Below are positions 28,471-35,464 of a stretch of DNA of 64,000 bases, piece by piece. Every line of letters starts with the position of its first letter. The stretch's first letter is position 1. The DNA lies in NCBI RefSeq assembly GCF_007860095.1, contig NZ_SJPT01000004.1, positions 62,001 through 126,000 of the forward strand, written 5' to 3'. The notes beneath the pieces were generated by a model. The model was not told the origin of the DNA and did not search any database. It saw only the letters and a program-made list of their open reading frames with translations. The position numbers were made by a program, and so were the translations under genes. The DNA comes from Novipirellula galeiformis. Its GTDB lineage: Bacteria > Planctomycetota > Planctomycetia > Pirellulales > Pirellulaceae.

Positions 28471-29190
28471 CTATTTTTGCACCCGTGACATACCGCCATC
28501 CACCCCAACGACCTGGCCTGTGATCCAACTGCTCTCGTCGGAGAGCAAGAAACGGGCCATCGAAGCGACATCCTGTACGCATCCAATCCGTCCCAGCGGA
28601 TACATCGCCGCCATCGCTTTGCGTTTCGCATCCCCCGCAAGCAATCGTGCGCTGAGCGGAGTGTCGATCAATGCCGGTGCAACACAGTTGACACGAATGT
28701 TCGGTGCAAGCTCTGCGGCCCAGGTTCGCATGACCCCTTCGATGGCGCCCTTGCACGCCGATACCGAGGTATGCATCGCCATTCCCCGTCCCACCGCGAC
28801 GGTGCTAAACAAGACCACGCTCGACGTCTCCGCCGCTTTTAACGCAGGCAGAACACGCTGCATGATTCTTAGCGCCGCGACCACATTCAATTCAAAATCG
28901 TCGCGCACCGTTTCCAACTTGGTCATCCGCAGCGACGACAAGTGCAGCGACCCAGCACAATACGCCACCCCGTCGATCCGTGCGGGCAACTCGATCGCAT
29001 CGATCTCGTCAGTCGTCACATCGACACGATGATGCACGCAACGCGGCAAGAGCGACGCATCGAGACGGTCGAGTTCTCCAGGCGTGCGAGAAACCACAAC
29101 GACCGAGGCTCCCTGCTGAAGCAATTGCTCGCTCAGCCCCAAACCGATTCCGTGACTGCCGCCGACGACTAAAAACGTTTTATCATGCAT
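28471..29190 (-). CDS. SDR-family oxidoreductase lacking the canonical Tyr
   Basis: From MHDKTFLVVGGSHGIGLG (GGSHGIG nucleotide loop, residues 10-16) the protein is 239 residues, a normal size for a classical short-chain dehydrogenase. Other family elements are AYCAGSLH (the NAG-type motif), LFSTVAV (Ser129), IRVNCVAPALIDTPL and ITGQVVGVDGGM. The catalytic YxxxK motif reads VSACK (V143, K147), so the tyrosine is missing; a subgroup of SDR proteins with HxSVxxxK in this place exists. It likely binds NAD(P), but the reaction is unknown and the canonical proton relay is altered. An upstream ATG at 29235 adds 15 residues without family support. Confidence 0.85.
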   Translation of the reverse strand: MHDKTFLVVGGSHGIGLGLSEQLLQQGASVVVVSRTPGELDRLDASLLPRCVHHRVDVTTDEIDAIELPARIDGVAYCAGSLHLSSLRMTKLETVRDDFELNVVAALRIMQRVLPALKAAETSSVVLFSTVAVGRGMAMHTSVSACKGAIEGVMRTWAAELAPNIRVNCVAPALIDTPLSARLLAGDAKRKAMAAMYPLGRIGCVQDVASMARFLLSDESSWITGQVVGVDGGMSRVQK

Positions 29191-29622
29191 CTCAGAGGCT
29201 TGCAAAAGAGAGATTCGTTGCCGCGTGTAGTTCACTGTAGCGGGAAGGCAACGTCGGAACTCGAGCCCCTCCTTTGCGTTTGCGAATCAAGCCATCTCGT
29301 CAACAAGCCGTCTCGTGGTCAAGGTGTTTCGTGGTCAAGGTGTAACGCGATTCCAGCGAGTCGACGCTATTTCACTCGCAGGCTAGCATTCCGCCGCAGC
29401 TTGATTTCCGCTTATCAGAACTCGCCGGTGAGCCGCCTTCACTGCGCCGAACCGCGAAAGTCTTGGCAACTTCCGTTACGCCCTGCCCCCCCCCCGGGTT
29501 CTTAAGGGGGATCAAACGTTCGAGCCCATTGATACATGACGTGGGATTCAAGCCGTAGCGGCGTGCCTGGGAACGTGGTCCCCCCATCGGGCGACGTTAG
29601 CGACATCAAAATTAAAAATGCG
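29191..29622. other. non-coding gap of 432 bp with poly(C) run
   Basis: The gap has a run of ten C at 29486-29495 and a direct repeat of TCGTGGTCAAGGTGT near 29310-29345. No gene or clear promoter is visible. Confidence 0.4.
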
Positions 29623-32014: not shown

Positions 32015-35000
32015 TTAACTGGTCGCTGCGACGACTTGGCGATCAAACCCGAGTTCGGACAAATGGGCTGCGGTGCGAGCGACCGTAAACCGAATTTGCT
32101 CTTCACTGTGCTCCGAAGTGATAAAGAACCGCAACCTCGCCGCCGATTCATCCACCGCCGGATACAAGATCGGTTGCACATTGATCCCGTCCCCCTTCAG
32201 CCGATGCGACAATCGCAGTGCGACCATTGAGTTACCGGTGATAATCGGAATCACAGGCGTCCCTTCGCTATCGCCCGTATCGAGCCCCGCTTCGCGACAC
32301 AGCGACAAAAATAATTCACTGCGCTTGCGGAGTGTGACGACGCGTTCGGGTTCATCTCGCAAGGTTTGGATCGAGGCCAACGCCGCTGCCACCTGGGCCG
32401 GCGGCATCCCCACGCTGAACACAAATCCGGGCGCGGTGTACTTCAGTAGCTCAATCAATGCCGAACTTCCTGCGATGTAGCCACCGCATGACGCAGCGGA
32501 CTTGCTCAGCGTTCCCATCCAAATATCGACATCACGGGCGTCCATATGAAAATGTTCGGCGATCCCGCGTCCCGTTTCACCCATCGTGCCAAAACTATGC
32601 GCCTCGTCGACCATTAACAACGCGCGATGTTTTTTCTTGACTTCGACAAACTGAGGCACGTCCGCAAAGTCGCCATCCATGCTGTAGACGCCTTCGATCA
32701 CGATCAACACTCGGCGATACTGCGATCGCATTTCGGTCAACATCCGATCCAAAGCTTCGAAATCATTGTGGGGAAAGGGTCGTCGGCGTGCGCCGGACAA
32801 CAACGCCCCTTGGACGATACTGTTGTGTGCCAAGGCATCGTGCAGAATCAAGTCGCCCGACCCCACCAAATGGCCGATCGTCGTTTCGTTGGTCGCATGG
32901 CCGCCGACCATCAAGATCGAGGCATCGACGCCAACCCACTCGGCGATTGCATTTTCAAGCTCGCGATGGATCGGCTTTTCACCCGACACCAACCGGCTTG
33001 CCGAAACACTCGTCCCGTACTTGCGAACCGCATCGGCCGCGGCCTCGGTGACGCGTGGATGACCGCTCAGACCCAAGTAATTGTAGCTAGCAAAGCTAAT
33101 GTATTCTTTTCCGTCGATAATCGTTGTATCGCGAACGATGTTGTCATGCACGGTGAAGTACGGGTTCGGCACTCCGGTCATCTGCATTTGCTGAATGGTC
33201 GTTTTCAGTCGACGGTATTCAGCGAACTGCGAGAAATCGTCCTCGGGCTCGACCGCGGCGACGGCGTTGGCGTATCCACCCAACGAGGCCTTGGCTTCGG
33301 CAGAGGCACCGACGGGGAATTCACCGCTGTCCAAAAACGCCACCGCACGAACTTCGCCGCCGGGCGGCAAGTAACGCTGGATCGCTAATGCGGTTTGCCC
33401 GACGGTTTCGATTTCGTCGAGCACTTGCTCGGGAAAGCGGCCCCCGAAGGTGCGTTCGATGTTCCGTGCGATTTCGAGACGTTCGAGACTATCGAGCCCC
33501 AGATCCAACACAATATTGGTATCGATGTCCAGCACGCGGGCGCGCTCACCGGCGACTTGGCGAATGTGTTGCTTGATCGCTTCGACCACCGAATCGTTGA
33601 GATCGTCCAGGTTGATCTTGCCGGTCCGGCCGCCCGCCGCAGCGGCTTGCATCATCGGTTGCAGCACGCCGTCGTCGTGAGTCGTTTCCTCTTCCCAACG
33701 CACCCATTTGGCAATCATCTTCATGTCGCCATCGCGAACCGCGTGCAGACACGCATGGCGTTGAATCTTGCCACTGCTGGTTTTCGGAACGCTGCTATTG
33801 CGAACCAGGTAAACCGCGTCGGGTGGCAATTCGTGATCTAACGTCACGGCGCGGCGAATCGCCTGAAGGTGTGCATCCCAATCGAGATCTCGCAAGCGAA
33901 CCGTTTCCGCCACGATTACCAATTGTTCGCGTCCCTCATACTCCATTGCGAAGGCGGCAACCGAACCGGCTTGCACCGCGTCGCTGGCGTGCTCGACCGT
34001 TTCTTCGATGTCTTGCGGATAACGATTCACCCCGCGGACAATGATCATGTCCTTCAAGCGACCCGAAACGTAAAGTTGGTTCTCGCACAAAAAGCCCAAG
34101 TCACCCGATCGCAAAAACGGACCTTTGTGGTCCGCCGTGCGGGCGAAAAAGGTTTCCTCAGTCGCGTCGCCGCGTTGGTAATACCCTTGTCCGACCGATG
34201 GACTTTGTATCCAGATCTCGCCGATCTGGTCATCCGCCAGCGGCATGCGGGTCTCGGGATCAACGATCACGATCGTTTCTTCGGGCAACACTCGTCCACA
34301 ACCGACCAATCGCCGCGCCGAAACGTCGTTCTCGTCGACAAGCTCGACTTTCTTCGCATCCAAGGCGCTGCCGTTGAACGTCGTCACGACAGGTCGAGTT
34401 TCGATCGGTCCGCCGGTGACAAGCAATGTCGTTTCCGCCATCCCGTAACAGGGCAAAAACGCCTCACGGCGAAAACCAAACTTGGCAAAACGCTCCGAAA
34501 ATGCATCTATGGTCGAGATCCGAATCGGTTCAGCGCCGTTAAATGCGATCTCCCATTTGGAAAGATCGACCCCTTCCATCTCTTCGTCCGCGATCTTGTC
34601 GACACACAATTGGAAGGCAAAATTAGGACCGCCACTGATCGTAACGCCGTACTTCGAAATGCCTTGCAACCATCGCGCGGGCCGCTGCAGGAAGGTCATC
34701 GGACTCATCAAAACGTCGCGGCGGCCAATGAACATCGGCATCAAAATGCCGCCCACTAAGCCCATGTCGTGATATGTCGGCAACCATGACATGCCAATCA
34801 CGTCGGCCCGAGGCTGGAACGCTTGCAGAATCAACTCGCTGTTGGCAATCAAATTGCCCTGCGTCAACATCACCCCCTTGGGTGAACCGGTCGAACCCGA
34901 CGTGTACTGCAACACTCCGAGCGAGTCACGATTGATCTTTGGCATCCGCCACTTTTCTGCCAACCGGCAAGCGGGATCGTCGGTCCCGAGCAATTGCAAA

Positions 35001-35464
35001 CCGACCAAATCGTCGTGCTTTTGGTCTCCCGACAACTGCTCCACAATCGCCTTTGTCGAAAGCGCCCAACGCGTGTCGGCATCGACCACGATCGAACGAA
35101 TTCGCGACGCCTTGCGATTGCGCCGCGGCGGATAGGCCGGGACAGCGATCGCGCCCGCGGCGTGACAAGCGAAAAAGCCAATCACAAACTCGAGACAAGG
35201 CGGATACAACAACAAGATCCGGTCGCCACTGCGAATGCGGCAACGATCTTGCAAATATCCCGCCAACGCACGAACTTCTTCCCACAGTTCCGAATACGTA
35301 ATCGTCTGTTCCGACGACTCTACGTCGGTGAAAAGAAACGCAGGCTCATGGGGACGTTGCTCAGCCCAGAACCTTAGAATCGAGACATAATGATCTCTCG
35401 GTGGCGACTGCTTGCCAAAGAATTCTTTCAGGTCCACTTGCGCATCACCGCCAAGAAGGTTCAT
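32015..35464 (-). CDS. fatty-acyl-AMP ligase / acyl carrier protein / alpha-oxoamine synthase fusion
   Basis: A 1149-residue three-module enzyme. Residues 1 to about 590 are an FAAL-type adenylate-forming ligase (P-loop YTSGSTGSPKG 187-197, GPNFAFQLC, YGMAETTL 340-347, RSGDLGF, RGVNRYPQDIE, catalytic K566 in SSGKIQR). Residues about 625-700 are an acyl carrier protein with LGLDSLERLE, phosphopantetheine site S659. Residues about 760-1140 are a class II PLP aminotransferase-fold oxoamine synthase (FASYNYLGLSGHP, HDALAHNS, DEAHSFGTMGETGRG, PLP lysine K988 in LSKSAASCGG). It should adenylate a fatty acid, load it on its own carrier and condense the thioester with an amino acid, releasing CO2, to give a long-chain aminoketone. 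Serine would give a sphingoid-like base, but the amino acid is unknown. Confidence 0.9.
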   Translation of the reverse strand: MNLLGGDAQVDLKEFFGKQSPPRDHYVSILRFWAEQRPHEPAFLFTDVESSEQTITYSELWEEVRALAGYLQDRCRIRSGDRILLLYPPCLEFVIGFFACHAAGAIAVPAYPPRRNRKASRIRSIVVDADTRWALSTKAIVEQLSGDQKHDDLVGLQLLGTDDPACRLAEKWRMPKINRDSLGVLQYTSGSTGSPKGVMLTQGNLIANSELILQAFQPRADVIGMSWLPTYHDMGLVGGILMPMFIGRRDVLMSPMTFLQRPARWLQGISKYGVTISGGPNFAFQLCVDKIADEEMEGVDLSKWEIAFNGAEPIRISTIDAFSERFAKFGFRREAFLPCYGMAETTLLVTGGPIETRPVVTTFNGSALDAKKVELVDENDVSARRLVGCGRVLPEETIVIVDPETRMPLADDQIGEIWIQSPSVGQGYYQRGDATEETFFARTADHKGPFLRSGDLGFLCENQLYVSGRLKDMIIVRGVNRYPQDIEETVEHASDAVQAGSVAAFAMEYEGREQLVIVAETVRLRDLDWDAHLQAIRRAVTLDHELPPDAVYLVRNSSVPKTSSGKIQRHACLHAVRDGDMKMIAKWVRWEEETTHDDGVLQPMMQAAAAGGRTGKINLDDLNDSVVEAIKQHIRQVAGERARVLDIDTNIVLDLGLDSLERLEIARNIERTFGGRFPEQVLDEIETVGQTALAIQRYLPPGGEVRAVAFLDSGEFPVGASAEAKASLGGYANAVAAVEPEDDFSQFAEYRRLKTTIQQMQMTGVPNPYFTVHDNIVRDTTIIDGKEYISFASYNYLGLSGHPRVTEAAADAVRKYGTSVSASRLVSGEKPIHRELENAIAEWVGVDASILMVGGHATNETTIGHLVGSGDLILHDALAHNSIVQGALLSGARRRPFPHNDFEALDRMLTEMRSQYRRVLIVIEGVYSMDGDFADVPQFVEVKKKHRALLMVDEAHSFGTMGETGRGIAEHFHMDARDVDIWMGTLSKSAASCGGYIAGSSALIELLKYTAPGFVFSVGMPPAQVAAALASIQTLRDEPERVVTLRKRSELFLSLCREAGLDTGDSEGTPVIPIITGNSMVALRLSHRLKGDGINVQPILYPAVDESAARLRFFITSEHSEEQIRFTVARTAAHLSELGFDRQVVAATS

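Follow-up and report, generated by a model that had tools for sequence, protein, structure and literature searches.

A conserved fatty acyl-AMP ligase, acyl carrier protein and oxoamine synthase fusion of Pirellulaceae as a probable one-chain entry into sphingolipid synthesis

The window analysed here is a 64,000-nucleotide stretch of the marine planctomycete Novipirellula galeiformis (order Pirellulales, family Pirellulaceae; contig NZ_SJPT01000004.1, positions 62,001 to 126,000), whose genome is 7.4 Mb in size. Its minus strand carries a gene for a fusion of a fatty acyl-AMP ligase (FAAL), an acyl carrier protein (ACP) and a pyridoxal phosphate (PLP)-dependent α-oxoamine synthase (AOS). The order of the three modules within a single frame of 1149 amino acids (aa), proposed in a preliminary description of the sequence, is borne out by Pfam domains. 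The gene consists of the following parts:

32015-35464, minus strand: the whole FAAL-ACP-AOS fusion gene (ATG start, one open frame, 1149 aa and a stop)
34178-35371, minus strand: large, AMP-binding subdomain of the FAAL, aa 32-429 (Pfam PF00501, E 2.6e-69)
34298-34375, minus strand: insertion of 26 residues, aa 364-389, shared with FAAL-like proteins and AasR but not with FadD (alignment)
33710-34051, minus strand: small C-terminal subdomain of the FAAL, aa 472-585, a DIP2-like AMP domain (Pfam PF23024), with K566 at 33767-33769
33389-33580, minus strand: ACP domain, aa 629-692 (PP-binding, Pfam PF00550, E 7.2e-11), with S659 at 33488-33490
33239-33367, minus strand: variable linker between ACP and AOS, aa 700-742 (alignment and low pLDDT)
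32018-33250, minus strand: AOS, aa 739-1149 (Pfam PF00155, E 2.2e-46; Aminotran_1_2 at aa 787-1125)
minus strand, within the AOS: K988 (32501-32503), H880 (32825-32827), R1112 (32129-32131) and V1018 (32411-32413)

The residues singled out in the preliminary description are correctly numbered: K566 lies in GKIQR, S659 in DLGLDSLE and K988 in GTLSKSA. In the AOS, K988 is the PLP lysine, H880 the stacking histidine and R1112 the carboxylate-binding arginine. The ligase has the AMP-binding fold, the catalytic lysine and the insertion that distinguishes FAALs from acyl-CoA ligases. This insertion (residues 364-389), which supports the FAAL character assigned earlier, amounts to 26 residues more than in E. 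coli FadD, and the same site is filled in FAAL-like proteins of Legionella, a mycobacterium and Diaphorobacter and in E. coli AasR. Insertions of the FAAL type hinder the use of CoA. The best solved relatives of the ligase by sequence are a polyketide synthase (PKS; 7r7f), Saframycin Mx1 synthetase B (3kxw) and the fatty-acid--AMP ligases FadD23 and FadD32.

The AlphaFold2 model of the AOS has a pLDDT of 91.4, and its top structural match is the serine palmitoyltransferase (SPT) of Sphingobacterium (8guh, E 2.1e-40, TM 0.91 by query length). The fold alone leaves the type of AOS undecided because Kbl-type chains and those of 5-aminolevulinate synthase follow closely behind 8guh. None of the NCBIfam AOS models reaches its cut-off among the best 25 of 122 (bioF scores 356.9 bits against a cut-off of 426.45, and the SPT models lie well below theirs). 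The full-length model is less certain (pLDDT 78.7, pTM 0.50), with residues 593-616 and 715-752 below a pLDDT of 50; these stretches would fit an ACP that swings between its partners. Two genes of the phosphopantetheinyl transferase family are present in the genome.

The fusion is real, conserved and well formed, and chance or misassembly is excluded. It is 93% identical to its counterpart in Rhodopirellula maiorica SM1, and the protein is matched somewhere in all 119 sampled genomes of the family. A single frame crosses all three modules in at least 92 of these (84 with one match and eight with two matches in one frame), so the three-domain order is indeed conserved in planctomycetes. In four of the 84 (G007, G040, G051 and G115) one stop is counted in the match, yet the open frame is 1128-1143 aa long; in the remaining 27 genomes the fusion is partial, split over contigs, unfused, lacking, or incomplete among the matches listed. 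Loss of the PLP lysine or the ACP serine was looked for in relatives, and both are kept throughout: K566, S659, K988, H880 and R1112 are each present in 44 of 44 sequences and D953 in 43 (frames of at least 1000 aa, the window's own included; seven of 51 matching loci were omitted for frames that were too short). The AOS is the best conserved module, with a mean identity over relatives of 0.73 compared to 0.67 for the ACP and 0.64 for the FAAL, and the linker (residues 698-742) reaches 0.45 over the 20 of 43 relatives that are filled there.

In a sample of 196 genomes from the phylum, the fusion occurs in four (G000, G018, G043 and G262), all of the same order as N. galeiformis. One of these, G018, carries a second FAAL-ACP-AOS chain (L152:2621-5950) with an AOS of a different branch, where it groups with ACP-AOS proteins (support 100/100). 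In a clostridial chain and in a chain of G142, another AMP-binding domain is joined to an ACP and an AOS. The FAAL-ACP-AOS order was probably put together more than once, with the second chain of G018 as a probable independent fusion. Fusions were also matched in records titled Candidatus Kuenenia stuttgartiensis, with the titles taken as they stand. A locus of G033 (L190:3008-6097) has a FAAL joined to a diverged AOS with no ACP match, and an ACP-AOS gene lies on a separate contig (L191).

The rest of the genome provides a context for this chain. In E. coli B-type strains, a single stretch holds yghO, which encodes a bacterial ceramide synthase (bCerS), together with genes for a FAAL-like acyl-ACP synthetase (AasR), an epimerase (CerR), AcpR and SPT (roles assigned after PMC9386255). 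The N. galeiformis genome has a single homologue of YghO (35% identity over 369 aa, E 2.6e-62), and queries from the E. coli stretch also match epimerases in it. With a CerR-like query from a planctomycete SPT operon, one gene stands out (39%, E 1.2e-55; the runner-up is at 9.4e-15). The only other AOSs found in the genome are Kbl, encoded beside Tdh, and a BioF-like protein, which cluster with their E. coli namesakes; neither a stand-alone AOS of the SPT clade nor a nearer relative of the stand-alone SPT query (E<=1e-90) was found there. Thus, homologues of two later ceramide enzymes are present, with the fusion as one candidate for the first step, and the genome context points to ceramide synthesis. 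The preliminary description, which named a sphingoid base among the possible products, gains support on this point, whereas its statement that context gives no hint of the product does not hold beyond the window.

Across the family, bCerS is matched in 118 of the 119 genomes, and at least 22 of the 67 genomes with both bCerS and a CerR-like gene have the two no more than 3 kb apart. In many Pirellulaceae loci a beta-ketoacyl-synthase-like gene is found directly downstream of bCerS (L078:11539-12927; L082, L083, L085-L090, L206 and L208).

In the phylum sample, bCerS is matched in 90 of the 196 genomes. Outside the order of N. galeiformis, an AOS gene lies 33-697 bp from bCerS in at least 35 of 73 genomes (bCerS match E<=1e-40). 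Twenty such regions were examined, 18 picked for visible adjacency and two more, several of which end at contig ends; a CerR-like gene is also present in nine. A first AOS tree groups 17 of 19 bCerS-adjacent planctomycete AOSs with the SPT of Sphingobacterium. In a tree of bCerS, the copies from the order of N. galeiformis form one clade (100/100) nested inside a planctomycete group, whose other members adjoin an AOS, save one second copy. The most economical interpretation places all three genes, SPT, bCerS and CerR, in an ancestor; this order would then have kept bCerS and CerR and replaced SPT. In another family of the same class, neither bCerS nor the fusion was found in 11 sampled genomes.

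The AOS module was placed in a second, more careful tree of 64 AOSs, from which near-copies (L012, L015, L016, L029, L053, L058, L132, L133, L138 and L139), the long-branched bCerS-adjacent L140 and L160, and also L155 and L166 were dropped. The 13 bCerS-adjacent AOSs that were kept fall with the SPTs of Sphingomonas, E. coli and Sphingobacterium (100/98). The AOS of the fusion groups with AOSs that are joined to a type I PKS in one chain or paired with one, with clostridial AOSs and with one from Acidisoma (100/99). Among these, L176 is an AOS on a Pseudomonas plasmid that shares 57% identity with the fusion and follows a type I PKS gene, with capsule genes nearby. On an Acidisoma plasmid (L177:7780-11113), genes for a bCerS homologue (36% identical to YghO over 381 aa and annotated as hypothetical), a short-chain dehydrogenase/reductase (SDR) and the AOS lie side by side, in a stretch that also holds capsule genes and a gene of the lipoteichoic acid (LTA)-synthase family. 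This stretch is a second link between the AOS branch of the fusion and bCerS.

The same clade contains the AOS of a single PKS-AOS chain of about 2550-2640 aa in some Pirellulaceae (L151:1419-9086, L164:3019-10722, L158:5497-13404 and L209:3578-11329); the domain order, read on L151 only, is KS-AT-DH-ER-KR-ACP-AOS. In Myxococcota, L055 (the one whose PKS domains were read), L058 and L063 encode chains of 2251-2406 aa that end in an AOS, and Smaragdicoccus (L056) has a shorter one, KS-AT-ACP-AOS, of 1390 aa.

One residue bears on the amino acid used. At the site of Lys281 of SulA, a cysteate enzyme, 15 of 15 fusions have valine (12) or alanine (3), while three of three SulA-like rows have lysine (residue roles at this site are taken from PMC9304779). 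A cysteate enzyme is therefore unlikely, and sulfonolipid synthesis was rejected as the role of the fusion. As a separate observation, an AOS close to cysteate acyltransferases is encoded on a Legionella lytica plasmid (L071:7863-12734), where it adjoins a long gene annotated as phosphosulfolactate synthase and a gene for 2-phosphosulfolactate phosphatase, which suggests sulfonolipid synthesis by these plasmid genes.

Within the window, the surroundings of the fusion are housekeeping genes, as described earlier; the nearest ones assigned to a family encode dihydroorotate dehydrogenase, a DFP-domain protein and an MgsA-type AAA ATPase. No neighbour from the window recurs in 30 fetched loci, except in the near-identical L026 and for a DUF1501/PSD1 pair in L030 and L032. 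Near relatives do share neighbours within their groups, and one group has conserved surroundings of its own. In eight of 52 fusion loci, all from this group, a small gene directly follows the fusion on the same strand (L040:5958-6512, L043:9603-10088, L049:9463-9981 and five more loci). Profile searches with three of these (L040, L043 and L049) gave only sub-threshold thioesterase matches, and a search of solved structures found a weak similarity to the acyl-CoA hydrolase 1vpm (E 1.9e-7). Judged by this resemblance, the small gene is a possible source of free fatty acid for the FAAL. The SDR gene of the window (28471-29235, minus strand) was considered as a keto-sphinganine reductase and rejected; it matches the cluster SDR of the Pseudomonas plasmid weakly (34% over 83 aa) and that of Acidisoma not at all.

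The reading that we favour, and hold to be probable, is that the fusion is a single-chain, carrier-loaded sphingoid-base synthase of the SPT type, which likely uses L-serine and is followed by bCerS and the CerR-like epimerase on the way to dihydroceramide. Using ATP, the FAAL would adenylate a free long-chain fatty acid and load the acyl group onto the phosphopantetheine arm at S659. From the tethered ACP the acyl thioester would reach the PLP domain and there be condensed, with loss of CO2, with an amino acid, most likely L-serine, to give a 3-keto sphingoid base. The bCerS encoded in the genome would N-acylate this base, and the CerR-like epimerase would reduce it, giving dihydroceramide. 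Judging from the domains and the gene complement, the fusion most likely takes the place of SPT, producing the 3-keto sphingoid base from free fatty acid and, probably, serine. From these data we infer that acyl loading occurs in cis, that serine is used and that bCerS and CerR belong to the same pathway; independence of CoA, the amino acid and the product are likewise presumed.

Two known systems offer precedents for such a scheme. According to PMC9386255, the SPT of Rhodobacteria is served by a dedicated acyl-ACP synthetase and a dedicated ACP, and this synthetase accepts no ACP but its own kind. A fusion would make this pairing automatic and keep the acyl chains out of the CoA pool. PfSgaB, a PKS-paired AOS of P. 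fluorescens, was purified as a dimer and formed an aldimine with serine; supplied with acyl-CoA surrogates, it yielded 3-ketodihydrosphinganines and used L-serine almost exclusively (PMC12134224). From its gene arrangement, L176 appears to be a relative of PfSgaB.

Several observations weigh against this assignment. The genes for the fusion, bCerS and CerR are not neighbours in the N. galeiformis genome. CerR-like genes (E<=1e-40) are found in 68 of the 119 family genomes and belong to a broad epimerase family. In G031 the fusion is present with no match to bCerS, and in G022, G085, G102 and G117 bCerS is accompanied by only weak fusion matches (E 1e-44 to 4e-65), all in drafts that are 82-91% complete. 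Since nearly all genomes of the family have both the fusion and bCerS, shared ancestry accounts for most of their co-occurrence at this level. Nine of the 119 genomes, eight of which also have the fusion, encode a protein closer to the stand-alone SPT query (E<=1e-90); the five that were read (L181, L182, L184, L185 and L187) are frames of 509-535 aa, with an ACP and an AOS recognised by Pfam in all three searched (L181, L182 and L185). Not every family genome has the modules fused: in seven (G009, G024, G039, G060, G073, G089 and G104), which have bCerS too, the ligase occupies a separate frame of 595-673 aa (four of these loci, L193-L196, were read). Two of the 19 bCerS-adjacent AOSs escape the SPT grouping of the first tree, L140 being unplaced and L160 lying with SulA-like rows. 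The AOS of the fusion falls outside the clade of recognised bacterial SPTs (100/98, second tree), and approximately unbiased (AU) tests settle no deeper placement, either with Kbl and BioF (p=0.254) or with bacterial SPT (p=0.061). Membership of the wider clade alone is no proof of ceramide synthesis because three planctomycetes with such AOSs (G142, G202 and G305) have no bCerS match. Of separate note, a CerR-like epimerase gene lies beside an ACP-AOS gene at two loci (L201:5989-9035 and L204:4855-7916).

The position outside the SPT clade would also suit an enzyme that makes an aminoketone lipid from glycine, alanine or another amino acid, such as a 1-deoxy or lysine-headed sphingoid base, as a membrane lipid or natural-product precursor. 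The pocket differs too, with V1018 in the fusion against alanine in three known and 13 bCerS-adjacent SPT rows; the related three-domain chain of G142 comes from a genome with no bCerS matched; and a Black Sea study (PMC11334938) states that Spt can use alanine and supposes that it may use lysine. However, bCerS accompanies the fusion nearly throughout the family, only Kbl and BioF were found as other AOSs in N. galeiformis, and the PKS-paired AOS that was tested takes almost only L-serine (PMC12134224), which makes a product without serine unlikely, albeit the strongest competitor.

Instead of entering ceramide, a sphingoid base might provide the lipid anchor of a surface polysaccharide, perhaps as with PKS/AOS pairs in capsule clusters, a fate that we consider quite improbable for the fusion. 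It is suggested by the type I PKS and capsule genes beside the top-ranked plasmid AOS (L176), by the SDR, capsule and LTA-synthase-family genes in the Acidisoma stretch, and by the rkp and wcb clusters, which join type I PKS to capsule genes (PMC3908369). No capsule genes lie beside the fusion in the window, though, and the Acidisoma stretch has a bCerS homologue too, with just the SDR between it and the AOS; for the latter reason the two fates are not exclusive. An inactive or vestigial AOS, which would leave a chain that makes acyl-ACP only, is very hard to reconcile with a PLP lysine, stacking histidine and carboxylate-binding arginine kept in all 44 sequences and with the AOS being the best conserved of the three modules.

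If the fusion is the sphingoid-base synthase proposed above, Pirellulaceae, a common aquatic family, are predicted to make sphingolipids through a one-protein entry step with no CoA and no separate partners. The Black Sea study reports Spt-like proteins in 138 metagenome-assembled genomes of Planctomycetota and sets aside homologues outside its Spt clade (PMC11334938). Since the fusions fall outside the SPT clade in the present tree, surveys that accept only this clade could miss such enzymes. Being compact, the chain also lends itself to reconstitution and might be used to produce sphingoid bases from free fatty acids.

In the second tree, LCB2, the catalytic subunit of eukaryotic SPT (Arabidopsis and yeast sequences), is sister to the clade of the fusion (95/88); in the first tree it is long-branched. 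This grouping was rejected as a secure result, as a tree that holds LCB2 with bacterial SPT passes the AU test (p=0.176), and the link is treated as no more than a lead, since AU tests reject none of the other deep placements (p 0.061 to 0.254). On a bolder view, the carrier-fed AOSs, with their FAAL-ACP-AOS and PKS-ACP-AOS chains, would be the nearest bacterial relatives of LCB2, eukaryotic SPT would derive from a carrier-dependent bacterial sphingoid-base synthase, and the family would make its sphingolipids with a self-loading, CoA-free SPT set aside by searches confined to the SPT clade; as a whole it is speculative, and we would not expect it to hold. Were the LCB2 grouping true, it would bear on the origin of the eukaryotic enzyme.

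Searches of one literature library found no paper describing a FAAL-AOS fusion, and the words "fusion" and "fused" are absent from the main text of PMC9386255. Among the closest known counterparts is the AasR-AcpR-SPT system of Rhodobacteria (Caulobacter and E. coli B), which, according to that paper, likewise combines a dedicated ligase, a dedicated ACP and a condensing PLP enzyme. Homologues of the later ceramide genes (bCerS and CerR) are present in both cases. The AasR-AcpR-SPT system consists of three separate proteins, whereas in the fusion the ligase and the ACP are domains of the same chain, which would feed an AOS that belongs to another branch. The fusion is probably a one-chain form of the sphingolipid entry step that other bacteria split among three proteins.

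In PfSgaAB of P. fluorescens (PMC12134224), as in the fusion, a carrier-bearing enzyme presumably hands the acyl group to an AOS. The AOS of the fusion groups with the PKS-fed clade, represented by L176 and the PKS-ACP-AOS chains in a tree that does not include PfSgaB. The difference lies in the source of the acyl chain, which an iterative type I PKS builds in PfSgaAB, while the fusion has a FAAL to take a ready fatty acid instead. With LCB2, its sister in the second tree, the fusion shares the CGGYIAG stretch after the PLP lysine (Arabidopsis LCB2a). Unlike the proposed activity of the fusion, LCB2 uses acyl-CoA and works together with LCB1 at the membrane. PigH (prodigiosin) and SxtA (saxitoxin) are ACP-AOS fusions too, with short acyl substrates and no fatty acid ligase in the chain. 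SulA, the cysteate acyl-ACP transferase, resembles the fusion, as proposed here, in being an AOS that takes acyl-ACP (PMC9304779), but it carries the marker Lys281 that the fusion lacks, and it belongs to a different clade.

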